DNA of 64,000 nucleotides, from NCBI GenBank assembly GCA_028284885.1, contig JANQQW010000270.1, forward strand, positions 1 to 64,000, written 5' to 3'. Shown piece after piece: positions 58,942 through 64,000 of this stretch; within the stretch, counting starts at the first letter, position 1; every line of letters starts with the position of its first letter. A model generated the notes under the pieces. That model was not told where the DNA came from. It saw only the letters and a list, made by a program, of their open reading frames with translations, and did no database searches. Source of the DNA: Planctomycetaceae bacterium. GTDB lineage: Bacteria > Planctomycetota > Planctomycetia > Planctomycetales > Planctomycetaceae. The position numbers and the translations under genes are program-made.

Positions 58942-58981
58942 CCTGTAGGGGCCGGACTCCGTGCCGGCCCTGCGCGTGGCA
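58942..58981. repeat. REP element, left of RAYT 1
   Basis: 40 bp that is the reverse complement of 59584-59623 with one mismatch. It contains the hairpin core GGGCCGG / CCGGCCC. Together the copies bracket the transposase as an inverted pair. Confidence 0.8.
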
Positions 58982-59011
58982 CATCTCGAACGACCGAACT
59001 GGCCGTCCAAC

Positions 59012-59548
59012 GTGACCGAGGTGCCGAACTACCAGTCGCTCCGCCCCGAACGCCGGTCCCACCGGCTGCCAGCCGACGTCTACACCCATGCCGGCCACGA
59101 GTTCCACTTCACGGTCTGCGCTCGACATCACGGTTCCCCGTTCTCGGACGACCGACTTGCCGATGTCGTCGTCGATTCACTGATGTGGACACGCGAGCGT
59201 TACGACTGGATCCTGTTCTGCTACTGCCTGATACCGGACCATCTGCACTTGCTGTGTCGACTCACGGCACGACAGGCTGCACACTTCGACGGCAGTCCTC
59301 GCGGCGAGGTTCCGGGGGGCGTGCTCGATCATCTCAGGCGGTTCAAGAGCTACACGACGTCTCAGTCGTGGAGGCTGGGTCTCGAGGGGCCGCTCTGGCA
59401 GCGGAGCAGCTACGACCGAGTGTTCGACTTGCAGCGGCCCTTCGAGGAGACGGCCGCGTACGTGTTGGAGAATCCGGTGCGGAAGGGGTTGGTCGAACGG
59501 TGGCAGGACTGGCCGTACTCGCAGATCGTTGATCCTTGGGAAGCGTAG
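59012..59548 (+). CDS. REP-associated tyrosine transposase (RAYT 1)
   Basis: 178 residues if started at the GTG at 59012; a GTG at 58961 lies inside the REP. Y1/IS200-like fold: HEFHFTVCARHHGSPFSDDR, the HUH motif LIPDHLHLLCRL, and LDHLRRFKSYTTSQSW with the likely catalytic Tyr. C-terminus ENPVRKGLVERWQDWPYSQI is typical for RAYT. Such enzymes cut and paste REP single strands. The gene is bracketed by two inverted REP copies of one family, the normal REPtron layout. Confidence 0.88.
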   Translation: MTEVPNYQSLRPERRSHRLPADVYTHAGHEFHFTVCARHHGSPFSDDRLADVVVDSLMWTRERYDWILFCYCLIPDHLHLLCRLTARQAAHFDGSPRGEVPGGVLDHLRRFKSYTTSQSWRLGLEGPLWQRSSYDRVFDLQRPFEETAAYVLENPVRKGLVERWQDWPYSQIVDPWEA

Positions 59549-59562
59549 GCGGGAGTGAAGAC

Positions 59563-60897
59563 ATGATGGGACGGGTTTCAGACTGCCAAGCGCAGGGCCG
59601 GCACGGAGTCCGGCCCCTACAGGTGCTTCTGCTCTTGTTCTTTGCCGCACCGCTTCTGGCCGACGAACCCGCCGAGCCGCCGGCGTTCGAGTTGAAGGAC
59701 GGGGACCGGGTCGTGTTCCTCGGGAACACGCTGATCGAGCGGATGCAGCGGTACGGCTACGTGGAGGCGGCGCTCACGGCTCGGTGGCCGGACCGGAACG
59801 TCACGTTCCGCAACCTCGGCTGGAGCGGCGACACCGTCTGGGCCGAGTCCCGCGGCCTGTTCGACCCACCCGCCAAGGGCTACCAGCGGATGATCAAGCA
59901 CGTCGGCGAACTGAAGCCGACCGTGATCTTCCTCGGCTACGGCAACGTCGAGGCGTTCGACGGAGAGAAGCGGCTGCCCGCGTTCGTGAAGCAGTACGAG
60001 AAGCTGCTGGACGACTTGGAGAAGGTGAGCGCGAAGGGCGTTCGGTTCGTGTTGATCGGGCCAAACGATGGGCCGAAACGGATTGGCGGTCACTTGGGTA
60101 ACGAAGTCCTGACGAGGGCCGAGCAATCGCAACTGAAGAATGTTCGGCTCTACGCCGACGCGATCTCGGCCATCGCCGCGCGACGGACGTTTCGCTTCTT
60201 CGATCTCGCCACACCGGTTTTCGAGAATTCCGAGTTTAGAACGCCAAGGGCCAGCATGGGGCTCGACGAACGCGAGTTTCCTCGCGTCGCCTACCTTCTC
60301 TTGAGCGATACGATGCCCCGGAAAGCGGGCAAGACACCTACGTGGCTTGACTCCGTGGAAGCACTCGGGGCGATCCTGTGGTGGAGGCGTTCTGTGTGCC
60401 TCGTCGTGAAGGACGGGAGGATGGAGGTGAACGCGGACGACACATTCTGCGGTCCTTCTCGGGGCAATGCCCGAGCGGAGGCGGGTGAGGGAGGATTCCG
60501 AGTGACAATCGAGGCGGAGCCGCTTCTCTCTGGGACGAGTGACGTGGTCGTCACGGGCCTTGCCGATGGCACCTACGCGTGGATGCACAATGGGGAGGAA
60601 CTGTCTCGGACAACGATTGGCGAGGACGACGAGCAACTCCTCCTTGACCGAGTCAGTCAGTTCGAGGCCCTTCGCAAGGCGATCGTCGAGAAGAACCGGC
60701 TCTACTTCCTGAAGTGGCGGCCGCAGAACGTGACGTACCTGACGCTGTTCCGGAAGCACGAGCAGGGGAACAACGCGGCCGAACTCGCCGAGTTCGACAA
60801 GCTCGTCGCCGCGAAGGAGGTCGAGATCGCCAAGCTGCGGAAGCCGGTGAAGCGGACGTACGAGTTGATCCGCGTCGAGCCGCAGAAGAAGAAGTAG
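59563..60897 (+). CDS. Secreted SGNH/GDSL-like hydrolase
   Basis: 444 residues from the ATG at 59563 (GGGAG eight bases before). Signal peptide core VLLLLFFAAPLLADEP; the residues before it are encoded by a REP element (59584-59623). Hydrolase block I reads VVFLGNTLIERMQRYGY, with block II RNLGWSGDTVWAESRG; GYGNVEAF takes the place of the GxND block. This GNTLIER variant is common in planctomycete secreted hydrolases. From about 60060 to 60690 base composition and codon choice look less GC-rich than in the flanks. The C-terminal part (FLKWRPQNVTYLTLFRKHEQ) returns to the host style. Confidence 0.8.
   Translation: MMGRVSDCQAQGRHGVRPLQVLLLLFFAAPLLADEPAEPPAFELKDGDRVVFLGNTLIERMQRYGYVEAALTARWPDRNVTFRNLGWSGDTVWAESRGLFDPPAKGYQRMIKHVGELKPTVIFLGYGNVEAFDGEKRLPAFVKQYEKLLDDLEKVSAKGVRFVLIGPNDGPKRIGGHLGNEVLTRAEQSQLKNVRLYADAISAIAARRTFRFFDLATPVFENSEFRTPRASMGLDEREFPRVAYLLLSDTMPRKAGKTPTWLDSVEALGAILWWRRSVCLVVKDGRMEVNADDTFCGPSRGNARAEAGEGGFRVTIEAEPLLSGTSDVVVTGLADGTYAWMHNGEELSRTTIGEDDEQLLLDRVSQFEALRKAIVEKNRLYFLKWRPQNVTYLTLFRKHEQGNNAAELAEFDKLVAAKEVEIAKLRKPVKRTYELIRVEPQKKK
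59584..59623. repeat. REP element, right of RAYT 1, inside the hydrolase start
   Basis: Inverted partner of 58942-58981 (39 of 40 bases). In the plus frame it encodes the residues around CQAQGRHGVRPLQV, the part of the hydrolase just before its hydrophobic signal-peptide core. Confidence 0.8.
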
Positions 60898-61309: not shown

Positions 61310-62863
61310 ATGTCCGACGACGCCTCCCCCGCGATCGACGATCCCGTCATCGTGTTCGACACGACGCTCCGCGACGGCGAGCAGTCTCCCGGCTGCAGCA
61401 TGACGCAGCCCGAGAAGCTGCAGATCGCCGAGGCGCTCGTCGATCTCGGCGTGGACGTCATCGAGGCCGGTTTCCCGATCGCCTCGCCGGGCGACTTCCA
61501 GGCCGTCCGCGAGATCGCCAACTCCTTCGGGGACCGGACCACGATCGCAGGACTCGCCCGCTGCCGGGCCGAGGACGTCGACCGGGCGGCCGAGGCGCTC
61601 GAGGGGGCGGCCCACAAGCGGCTGCACGTCTTCCTCGCCACCTCGGCCATCCACCGCGAGCACAAGCTCAAGATGGGCAAGGAGCAGATCGTCGAGCGGG
61701 CCGTTGAGATGGTCCGCCGGGCGAAGGGGTTCGTCGACGACGTCGAGTTCTCCCCCGAGGACGCGGTGCGGACGGAGCTCGACTTCCTGACCGAGGTGGT
61801 GACGGCCGCCATCGACGCCGGGGCGACGACCGTCAACATCCCGGACACCGTCGGCTACGCCACGCCGCACCACTACCACCGGGTGATCACGCACCTCAAG
61901 GAGAACGTGCCGAACATCGACCGGGCCGTCATCAGCGTGCACTGCCACGACGACCTCGGCATGGCGGTCGCCAACAGCCTCGCCGGCGTGGAGGCGGGGG
62001 CCCGGCAGATCGAGTGCACGGTCAACGGCATCGGCGAACGAGCCGGGAACGCGGCGCTCGAAGAGGTCGTGATGGCGCTCCGCACCCGCCGGGACTACTA
62101 CGGCACGGAGACGCACGTCAACACGCGGAAGCTGTTCCCCACGAGCCAGCTGCTGCAGACCATCACCGGCGTGAAGGTGCAGCGGAACAAGGCGATCGTC
62201 GGACGGAACGCCTTCGCCCACGAGGCGGGCATCCACCAGCACGGCGTGCTGCAGTCCCGCGAGACCTACGAGATCATGCGGTCCGAGGACGTGGGCTACG
62301 TCGGCACGAACCTCGTGCTCGGCAAGCACTCCGGCCGCCACGCCTTCCGCGACCGCGTCGGACAACTCGGCTACGAGCTCGACGAGGAGACCTTCCAGCA
62401 GGTCTTCGAGGACTTCATCGACCTCGCCGACAAGAAGAAGGAGGTCTACGACTCGGACATCGTGGCCCTCATCGAGAACCGGACCGGCACCACGAAGGAC
62501 TACTGGACCCTGGAGCACTGCCAGGCGATGGCCGGTCCGGGCATGGTGCCGACGGCGACCGTGCAACTCGTCGACGAGAACGGCGTGCACCACCGCGACG
62601 CCGCGACCGGCGGTGGTCCGGTCGAGGCGGTGCTGCACGCGATGGAGCGGGTGATGGGCTTCGGCGCGAAGCTCGAGGACCTGCAGATTCGCAGCGTCTC
62701 GAAGGGGAAGGACGCGCTCGGCGAGGTCTCCGTCGAGGTCAACGTCGACGGCCGGACCTTCACCGGCAAGGGGGTCAGCGTCGACATCATCGAGGGTTCC
62801 GCCCGGGCGTACCTGAAGGCCCTCAACAAGGCGATCGCCGCGCGCCCCGTCGCGACGGCGTGA
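61310..62863 (+). CDS. leuA: 2-isopropylmalate synthase
   Basis: 517 residues from the ATG at 61310 ([20 protein letters not shown]). HMGL-like catalytic barrel with [33 protein letters not shown] and [16 protein letters not shown], then the LeuA regulatory (allosteric) domain near residues 390-510 with [20 protein letters not shown]. It makes 2-isopropylmalate from 2-oxoisovalerate and acetyl-CoA, the first step of leucine synthesis, and is usually inhibited by leucine. Expression is probably also controlled by the leader/attenuator upstream. The frame is open upstream to 60953, but that region holds REP hairpins and the leader. Confidence 0.97.
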
Positions 62864-62874
62864 TGACGTTCACG

Positions 62875-62978
62875 GGCGAGCGGGGGGTGTCAGCCCCCCG
62901 GTTTCGCGTTGCAGCAGGTTCGACGCGCGAAACGAGTGGAGCCCGTATCCGGCCGGCTGACACCGGCCGCTCGACGGG
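62875..62978. repeat. REP family 2, left copy
   Basis: About 104 bp with GGGGGGTGTCAGCCCCCC hairpin, GTTCGACGCGCGAAACGAGT and GGCCGGCTGACACCGGCC. A direct copy lies at 63525-63628, on the other side of RAYT 2. Confidence 0.8.
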
Positions 62979-62987
62979 GACGTGGCG

Positions 62988-63539
62988 ATGTCACTCGAAC
63001 TCGACCGCTACTGGTTGCTGACCTGGACGACGTACGGGACGTGGTTGCCGGGCGACCGCCGCGGGTTCGTGTCCGAGCATCGCGACGCAGACGGAGACAA
63101 GATCCTCCACAATCGACCCACCGAACCGTACGACGCCGATGACGCGGCGCTCCGACGGTACGCCGAGTTTCGGATGGCGAGCGATGCCTTCCGGCTCGAA
63201 GTCGAGCAGGCTGACGCACTCGTCGAGCAGTTTCGAGAGACGGCCGACTTCCGCGGCTGGTCGCTCTTCGCAGCGGCCGTCATGTCGAACCACGTGCACG
63301 TCGTCGTCGGTGTGCCCGGCGACCCGGAACCGGAGTTGCTACTCCGCGACTTCAAGAGCTACGGCAGCCGTCGCCTCAATCGGCGATTCGGAAAGCCGAC
63401 CTCCGGGACGTGGTGGACGGAGTCCGGCTCGCGACGCAAACTGCCGAACGAACAGGCGGTCGCGTCCGCGATCACGTACGTCGAGCAGCAGCGATCACCG
63501 CTGGCGACATGGTCCATCACCGAAGCGAGCGGGGGATGT
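62988..63539 (+). CDS. REP-associated tyrosine transposase (RAYT 2), open into epmA
   Basis: ATG at 62988. Different subfamily from RAYT 1: YWLLTWTTYGTWLPGDRRG, MSNHVHVVVGVPGD (HUH motif) and LLLRDFKSYGSRRLNRRF with a likely catalytic Tyr, then WWTESGSRRKLPNEQAVASA. The transposase homology ends near 63520 (QQRSPLATWSI). There is no stop codon: the same frame passes through the right REP copy and into epmA, staying open to the window edge. It has presumably lost its own stop, or was inserted so that its frame joins the next gene. Confidence 0.85.
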
Positions 63540-63680
63540 CAGCCCCCCGGTGACGCGTTGCTGGAGGTTCGACGCGCGAAACGAGTGGAACCCGTAACCG
63601 GCCGGCTGACACCGGCCGCTCGCCCGGTCGAGCGAAGCGGGGGCGCGAATCCGACCGGCTCACACCGGCCGCTCGCCGGA
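63525..63680. repeat. REP family 2, right copies
   Basis: A full direct copy of 62875-62978 (63525-63628) followed by a shorter partial copy with GACCGGCTCACACCGGCCGC (to 63680). The insertion ends immediately before the EpmA reading begins. Confidence 0.8.
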
Positions 63681-64000
63681 GACGACTGGAAGCCGGCGAT
63701 CTGCCTCGAGCGGCTGCGGAAGCGGGCGTTGGCGATGGACGCCGTGCGGGAGTTCTTCCGCAGCCGTGGCTACCTCGAGGTCGACACGCCGATTCTCTCG
63801 CACGACGTGGTCGTCGACGCCCATCTCGACCCGTTCACGACGCGATTCCGGCCGGAGCCGGGCGTCGAGCGGGACGAGCTGTTCCTGCAGACGTCGCCCG
63901 AGTTCCACGTGAAGCGACTGCTCTGTGCGCTCGCGGAGGACCAGGATCCGCCGGCCGGACTCTGGCAGGTCTCGCGGGTGATGCGGCAGGGGGAACTCGG
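63585..64000 (+). CDS. epmA: EpmA-like (GenX/PoxA) EF-P lysine ligase, 5' part
   Basis: Partial at the right edge. Class II lysyl-tRNA-synthetase paralogue without anticodon domain: DDWKPAICLERLRKRALAMD, VREFFRSRGYLEVDTPILS, VDAHLDPFTTRF and LFLQTSPEFHVKRLL match the EpmA N-terminus from its first residues. EpmA attaches beta-lysine to elongation factor P. The reading starts at about 63681, directly after a REP copy, and no ATG lies close. In-frame candidates are GTG at 63585 and TTG at 63558, both inside REP sequence, or an ATG at 63735 that would cut into the fold. The frame is continuous with RAYT 2. Confidence 0.82.
   Translation, partial: MEPVTGRLTPAARPVERSGGANPTGSHRPLAGDDWKPAICLERLRKRALAMDAVREFFRSRGYLEVDTPILSHDVVVDAHLDPFTTRFRPEPGVERDELFLQTSPEFHVKRLLCALAEDQDPPAGLWQVSRVMRQGEL

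Follow-up and report, generated by a model that had tools for sequence, protein, structure and literature searches.

RAYT transposase and EpmA in one open reading frame in a planctomycete, with related REP-RAYT insertions in other housekeeping genes

Introduction

Short palindromic repeats can be read in frame as parts of host proteins, as is the case for the RPEs of Rickettsia. Intragenic REPs have been described in a study that we take to be that of Di Nocera et al. 2013, referred to below by its accession, PMC3733652. In the available part of that text, REPs are reported within genes, those for tRNA synthetases included, and at the N-termini of housekeeping proteins; the REPs alone encode 20-82 residues, and many of the N-terminal cases may be the result of mis-annotation (PMC3733652). 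The REPtron, or RAYT (TnpA-REP) unit, consists of an HuH/Tyr transposase with REPs on either side that also occur dispersed over the genome, with the RAYT stop codon just before or at the REP (PMC2817692, as far as its accessible text goes); the strings "fus" and "in-frame" are absent from that portion. Unusually long TnpAY1 proteins were set aside as fusions or annotation errors in a survey that was available in part (PMC6006769). A looser analogue is the ShiLan domain of a phage methylase, a mobile insertion that is translated in frame and lacks splicing domains, its nuclease being encoded in another frame (PMC11855218, accessible sections).

The locus presented here shares with REP-decorated proteins the in-frame palindromic repeats and with REPtrons the HuH/Tyr transposase and its genome-dispersed flanking REPs. 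Unlike the former, it contains a whole RAYT together with REPs, and the start codon of the host gene is lost; unlike the latter, its RAYT has no stop codon and enters the host gene. The transposase is in the frame of the host and is flanked by REPs, which sets it apart from ShiLan. In contrast to the discarded long TnpAY1 proteins, those treated below come with a record of host partners, frames and copy number, and in one case of an empty site. RAYT-epmA would extend the known REP-decorated proteins, the new element being a whole RAYT coupled to a host gene. Among the papers searched, subscription journals aside and judged by title and opening of the abstract, none was found to describe a whole RAYT lying in the frame of a host gene.

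Layout of the RAYT-epmA locus

The window, which is the whole stretch of 64,000 nucleotides that was analysed, belongs to contig C380 of a planctomycete draft genome (G000) in 399 contigs. Near its right edge a frame of 563 codons runs without a stop from ATG 62988, or from the alternative GTG 62982 just upstream in the ORF listing, and ends in the continuation of the contig at TGA C380:64677-64679 (L009:4677-4679). It holds an intact RAYT transposase (residues ~1-179), a linker that REP sequence supplies, about 53 codons long (residues ~180-231, from REPIN2 and a further REP half) and a complete EpmA (residues 232-563). The REP half ends at 63677, directly followed by the first codons of epmA, GGA GAC GAC TGG (Table 1). 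The REP-encoded residues are in frame with EpmA, and a REP-decorated protein is predicted. A sequence-only reading of this DNA had proposed a stop-free frame from 62988 to the window edge, an element abutting the first conserved residues of EpmA, the lack of a nearby ATG and the possibility to read epmA as a transposase fusion. The ORF listing and direct reading confirmed the open frame, also from 62982, and the sequence confirmed the junction; the nearest ATG is 63735, inside epmA, and a single frame of 563 codons allows the fusion to be read.

Table 1 Features of the RAYT-epmA locus (window coordinates unless preceded by C380)
Feature	Position	Strand	Evidence or remark
leuA (2-isopropylmalate synthase)	61310..62863	+	Pfam HMGL-like, LeuA_dimer; upstream of cassette
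leuA stop TGA	62861-62863	+	overlaps ATG at 62863
REPIN1, 5' border of cassette	62876..62973	.	inverted pair of REPs with variable middle; genome copies
RAYT frame	62988..63524	+	Pfam Y1_Tnp, family relatives, AlphaFold model, PDB fold match
HuH motif NHVH	63288..63299	+	H102 and H104 invariant in both RAYT alignments (A1, A3)
Presumed catalytic Tyr Y164 (YVEQQ)	63477..63479	+	invariant in alignment A1, at least 90% in A3
REPIN2, read through in RAYT/EpmA frame	63525..63622	.	holds in-frame TTG 63558 and GTG 63585
Additional REP half, directly adjoining epmA	63654..63677	.	sequence
epmA (EF-P lysine ligase), own start codon absent	63678..64000, on to C380:64679	+	profile and structure matches
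First ATG within epmA, rival start	63735..63737	+	18 codons past first conserved residue

A complete EpmA and a transposase with intact motifs

The identity of EpmA was established with two profiles, both matched over the full model (TIGR00462, 319 bits against a cut-off of 286.9; NF006828, 299.7 bits against 264), and the solved EpmA chains 3g1z and 3a5z align with it from end to end. A genome-wide search showed it to be a single copy. The same genome encodes EF-P with a PGKGQ loop, the lysine of which we take to be the modified residue, and an EpmB that scores above its cut-off. As the sole EpmA is accompanied by EF-P and EpmB, a loss of its function would be unexpected.

The N-terminal ~179 residues of the fused frame match Pfam Y1_Tnp. 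The score with the NCBIfam model NF047646 (REP_Tyr_transpos) is 36.4-37.6 bits, below the cut-off of 80, so that the protein was named RAYT on the basis of its motifs, its flanks and its fold, as a divergent planctomycete type. An AlphaFold model with a mean pLDDT of 84.8 gave PDB matches to the IS200/ISDra2/IS608 transposases and to TnpA-REP (4er8). The conserved residues H102, H104 and Y164 provide the HuH motif and the single Tyr, presumably the catalytic one, of a Y1-type fold, and the RAYT motifs thus appear intact. The flanking REPs are dispersed over the genome: the query region gave 38 matches, most of which are REPIN copies. A stop codon of its own, situated 4-31 codons past the domain, is present in all 29 related RAYTs and is absent from the frame in the window.

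Several other RAYTs were seen alongside. A relative from the same genome, about 60% identical (L002, G000:C208), reaches the edge of its contig and carries a substitution at the second His of its HuH motif (HVY). In four further planctomycete loci (L042, L046, L051, and L064), the RAYT appears to enter the flanking REP, and its stop is a TGA within or at the edge of the REP. The window itself holds a second, unrelated RAYT-like ORF (58961-59548), which has no Pfam match and is called RAYT-like for its HxH motif and flanking REPs; the flanks in the region 58945-59660 are inverted GTAG-type REPs. The 3' REP of this ORF adjoins the signal peptide of a GDSL-like hydrolase ORF (59536-60897), which has either a GTG start just past the REP or a REP-encoded N-region.

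Candidate start codons and the open linker

No in-frame ATG, GTG or TTG is found between -31 and +15 codons around the first conserved residue of EpmA. The nearest upstream candidates, GTG 63585 (-32 codons) and TTG 63558 (-41 codons), both lie within REPIN2. Further inside epmA, TTG 63729 (+16) and ATG 63735 (+18) are in frame, and their use would cost 16-18 residues.

REPIN1 and REPIN2 share about 93% identity over 98 nt and are direct copies. Their middle part is common to both and absent from 20 other aligned REPIN copies, and REPIN2 therefore belongs with this RAYT. The 168-nt linker remained free of stops in 917 of 2000 dinucleotide shuffles (46%), and 57 of 120 frames were open in 20 other REPIN copies. 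With a further factor of one in three for the phase, by our own estimate, chance alone would leave a linker both open and in phase roughly 15% of the time. Openness being ordinary in shuffles and in other REPIN frames, the open linker was rejected as stand-alone proof of a fusion. The missing start codon carries more weight, and what is out of the ordinary, judged by sequence comparison with relatives, is a RAYT without a stop next to an EpmA without a start.

The frequency with which REP frames are open also favors the main rival of a fusion, namely that EpmA starts within REPIN2, at TTG 63558 or GTG 63585, with a REP-encoded tail of 32-41 residues behind a RAYT frame that is open by chance. 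Both codons are in frame, and the argument that mis-annotation of leaders accounts for many 5' REPs points the same way (PMC3733652, available part). These codons are, however, non-ATG codons in a strongly folded REP RNA (63520-63680, -84.9 kcal/mol), and any translation of RAYT would still enter EpmA. A start within REPIN2 is considered rather unlikely. Shine-Dalgarno energies were -7.7 kcal/mol for ATG 62988 and -7.3 kcal/mol for TTG 63558, with the 5th percentile of random positions at -8.4 kcal/mol; as these values are unremarkable, Shine-Dalgarno strength was rejected as arbiter of the start. Of the earlier proposal that epmA is now read either as a fusion or from a GTG/TTG supplied by the REP, the loss of the native codon was upheld, while the energies did not decide between the two modes.

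epmA in relatives

A search for the EpmA family matched 168 of 170 genomes, LysRS-type proteins included, and 30 loci among the matches listed were compared. The conserved EpmA motif is preceded by ATG, GTG, or TTG within 15 codons in 28 of 29 relatives. The exception (L017) has its sole upstream start 38 codons ahead of the motif; a tail of 32 codons from GTG 63585 is therefore not unheard of, which supports a start within REPIN2 and counts against a fusion. The same comparison bears on the internal codons TTG 63729 and ATG 63735, the latter being the first ATG of the gene. Starting there, EpmA would lose its first 16-18 conserved residues, a DDWKP...LRKRA segment on which family members agree and with which the solved EpmA chains align, whereas the 28 relatives begin upstream of this segment, and an internal start is regarded as improbable.

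No RAYT was present within the compared flanks of epmA in any of the 29 relatives, and no locus spanning both RAYT and EpmA was found among 80 listed of 211 confirmed loci in a contig search; a plasmid search gave no match. Among the loci compared, the fused RAYT-EpmA frame is thus known from one genome, the genus being represented by this genome alone, and conservation of the fused frame, which the sequence-only reading had raised, could not be demonstrated. The 29 loci offered no empty epmA site, since none of them has leuA ahead of epmA. For the same reason, the idea that translation originally began at ATG 62863, which overlaps the leuA stop (TGATG), and led into GGAGACGACTGG is attractive but stays a guess. 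In one relative (G004, L029), a REP adjoins epmA as well, yet the ATG is retained.

A REP-RAYT-REP unit at the start of bioA

In genome G140, a single frame of 667 codons consists of a truncated RAYT, REP sequence and BioA, the only copy above cut-off in that genome. ATG, GTG, and TTG are absent from -28 to +10 codons around the aligned BioA motif. Its congener G142 has at the same place ATG ACC GAT CGG CTG CGT CAA CTC, with the bioA start kept. The flanks of the two genomes are conserved on both sides (1365 nt at 93.6% and 2815 nt at 89.3%). Between them, G142 has 109 nt, in which the first four bioA codons are contained, where G140 has 666 nt of REP-RAYT-REP. Read from this alignment, bioA is a second 5' case, with an empty site, in which REP-RAYT-REP has replaced the start codon. 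The RAYT of G140 is truncated at its N-terminus, and its function is therefore not what is kept there. An insertion at the start of the gene, as had been suggested for epmA, thus has direct comparative evidence from the same kind of event at bioA, the empty epmA site itself not having been found.

Whole RAYTs in frame inside host proteins

RAYT ORFs were present in 63 of 80 loci (L070-L149), and five of the 63 have the RAYT embedded in frame in a host protein, with host sequence on either side: an MmeI-type methyltransferase (L095), LeuS (L106), ValS (L110 and L118), and PurH (L112). A search of the phylum (392 genomes, 169 of which gave a RAYT match) added RAYT-in-ValS cases in G513, G517 and G358, and the family search yielded a RAYT in an Eco57I methyltransferase of G088 that we take, by eye, to be PglX-like. 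As frames of at least 600 aa and some shorter ones were inspected, these counts are a minimum from a biased choice.

ValS with an in-frame RAYT occurs in five genomes (L110, L118, L166, L167, and L168), in the same loop and with RAYTs of two groups. In each genome, one frame alone exceeds the ValS cut-off and the pieces share one frame. In G513, G517, and G358 the match to the ValS model breaks off near 365-385 and is taken up again at about that position; in the remaining two genomes the RAYT is within the same loop. PurH of G536 (L112) is split at model positions 263/265, and G535 carries both a ValS and a LeuS insert. The host-embedded RAYTs fall into two groups, YxxxQ and YxxxxQ, all of them with HuH and Tyr. 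Inverted REP-like palindromes lie beside the RAYTs of L110, L118, L106, L112, L166, and L167 and are less clear in the others.

Some neighboring cases are of a different kind. The PurH insert of L112 contains, besides the RAYT, a tandem REP-derived GRGSSE repeat. A ValS frame of 1145 aa in G486 (L182) is longer than usual and may carry a REP-only insertion at the same site. In L115 (52-1323), a long in-frame tandem VPKDATTTPGPN repeat interrupts the RAYT frame; this locus and L122, L108, and L139, all with long flanks, were left out of the counts of host fusions. Long frames in G003, G425, G243:C54, and G004:C348 were dropped, the upstream part being GC-rich and seemingly non-coding by eye with no host domain noticed. 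An HsdR-RAYT frame in G166 ends soon past the RAYT and may represent a disrupted HsdR, and the nucleotidyltransferase that follows a RAYT in G069 carries its own methionines close to the start; neither was counted.

These loci bear on two further explanations. At epmA, the frame could be an artefact of assembly, RAYT and epmA having been wrongly joined at a repeat, or of a start or stop codon called in error, given the 399-contig draft, the 38 matches of the query region and a leuA-epmA adjacency that is absent in the 29 relatives. The unique middle of REPIN1 and REPIN2 nevertheless ties REPIN2 to the RAYT, the bioA arrangement is backed by synteny on two sides, and in-frame RAYTs also occur in single-contig assemblies (G513 and G088), which makes such an error quite improbable. 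For the RAYT-fused enzymes, annotation error is likewise an improbable origin. Group I introns that carry a transposase are known as IStrons. Removal of the RAYT part as an intron, IStron or intein, after transcription or translation, would account for its tolerance in essential genes. Against this, no Rfam intron was detected in 11 loci at gathering thresholds, nor in seven loci at E up to 1, and no intein/Hint Pfam domain is present in the window protein or in the scanned host-embedded frames. At epmA the junction coincides with the gene start and leaves no exon upstream of it, and removal is held to be highly improbable.

Discussion

Our preferred reading, to which we give a probability of roughly 0.6, is that EpmA is made as a RAYT fusion. 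A REPIN-RAYT-REPIN cassette with a further REP overlies the 5' end of epmA, the native start codon having disappeared. Since the RAYT lacks its own stop, any ribosome starting at ATG 62988 would continue through the REP linker into EpmA, and the product, a RAYT-EpmA protein of 563 residues, would be the most likely cellular source of EpmA. ATG 62988 would then be the start in use, driving EpmA synthesis; the fusion may fold with a flexible Pro/Gly/Arg-rich linker and be either active or cleaved, and the need for epmA function would keep the frame open. The in-frame RAYTs in sole copies of ValS and in PurH, LeuS, and methyltransferases show that coupled frames recur in housekeeping proteins. 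The ease with which a linker is open by chance, the unremarkable Shine-Dalgarno energies, the failure to find a conserved fused frame or an empty epmA site, and the N-terminal truncation of the RAYT in G140 speak against a fusion.

On a wider scale it is tentatively proposed, at less than even odds, that whole REP-RAYT units in the Planctomycetota persist as translated domains within or 5' of the single-copy genes for ValS, LeuS, PurH, EpmA, and BioA and are thereby shielded from decay. When the host gene depends on the frame of the element, any frameshift or stop that broke the transposase would also deprive the host of its enzyme, which would shield the element. An annotation warning follows, as at least one survey, in its accessible part, threw out such long proteins (PMC6006769). 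If the proposal is true, REP-RAYT units would have an intein-like way of life without splicing. RAYTs have been called domesticated, and the coupling of their frame to that of an indispensable gene would be a simple candidate reason why single-copy RAYTs stay intact.
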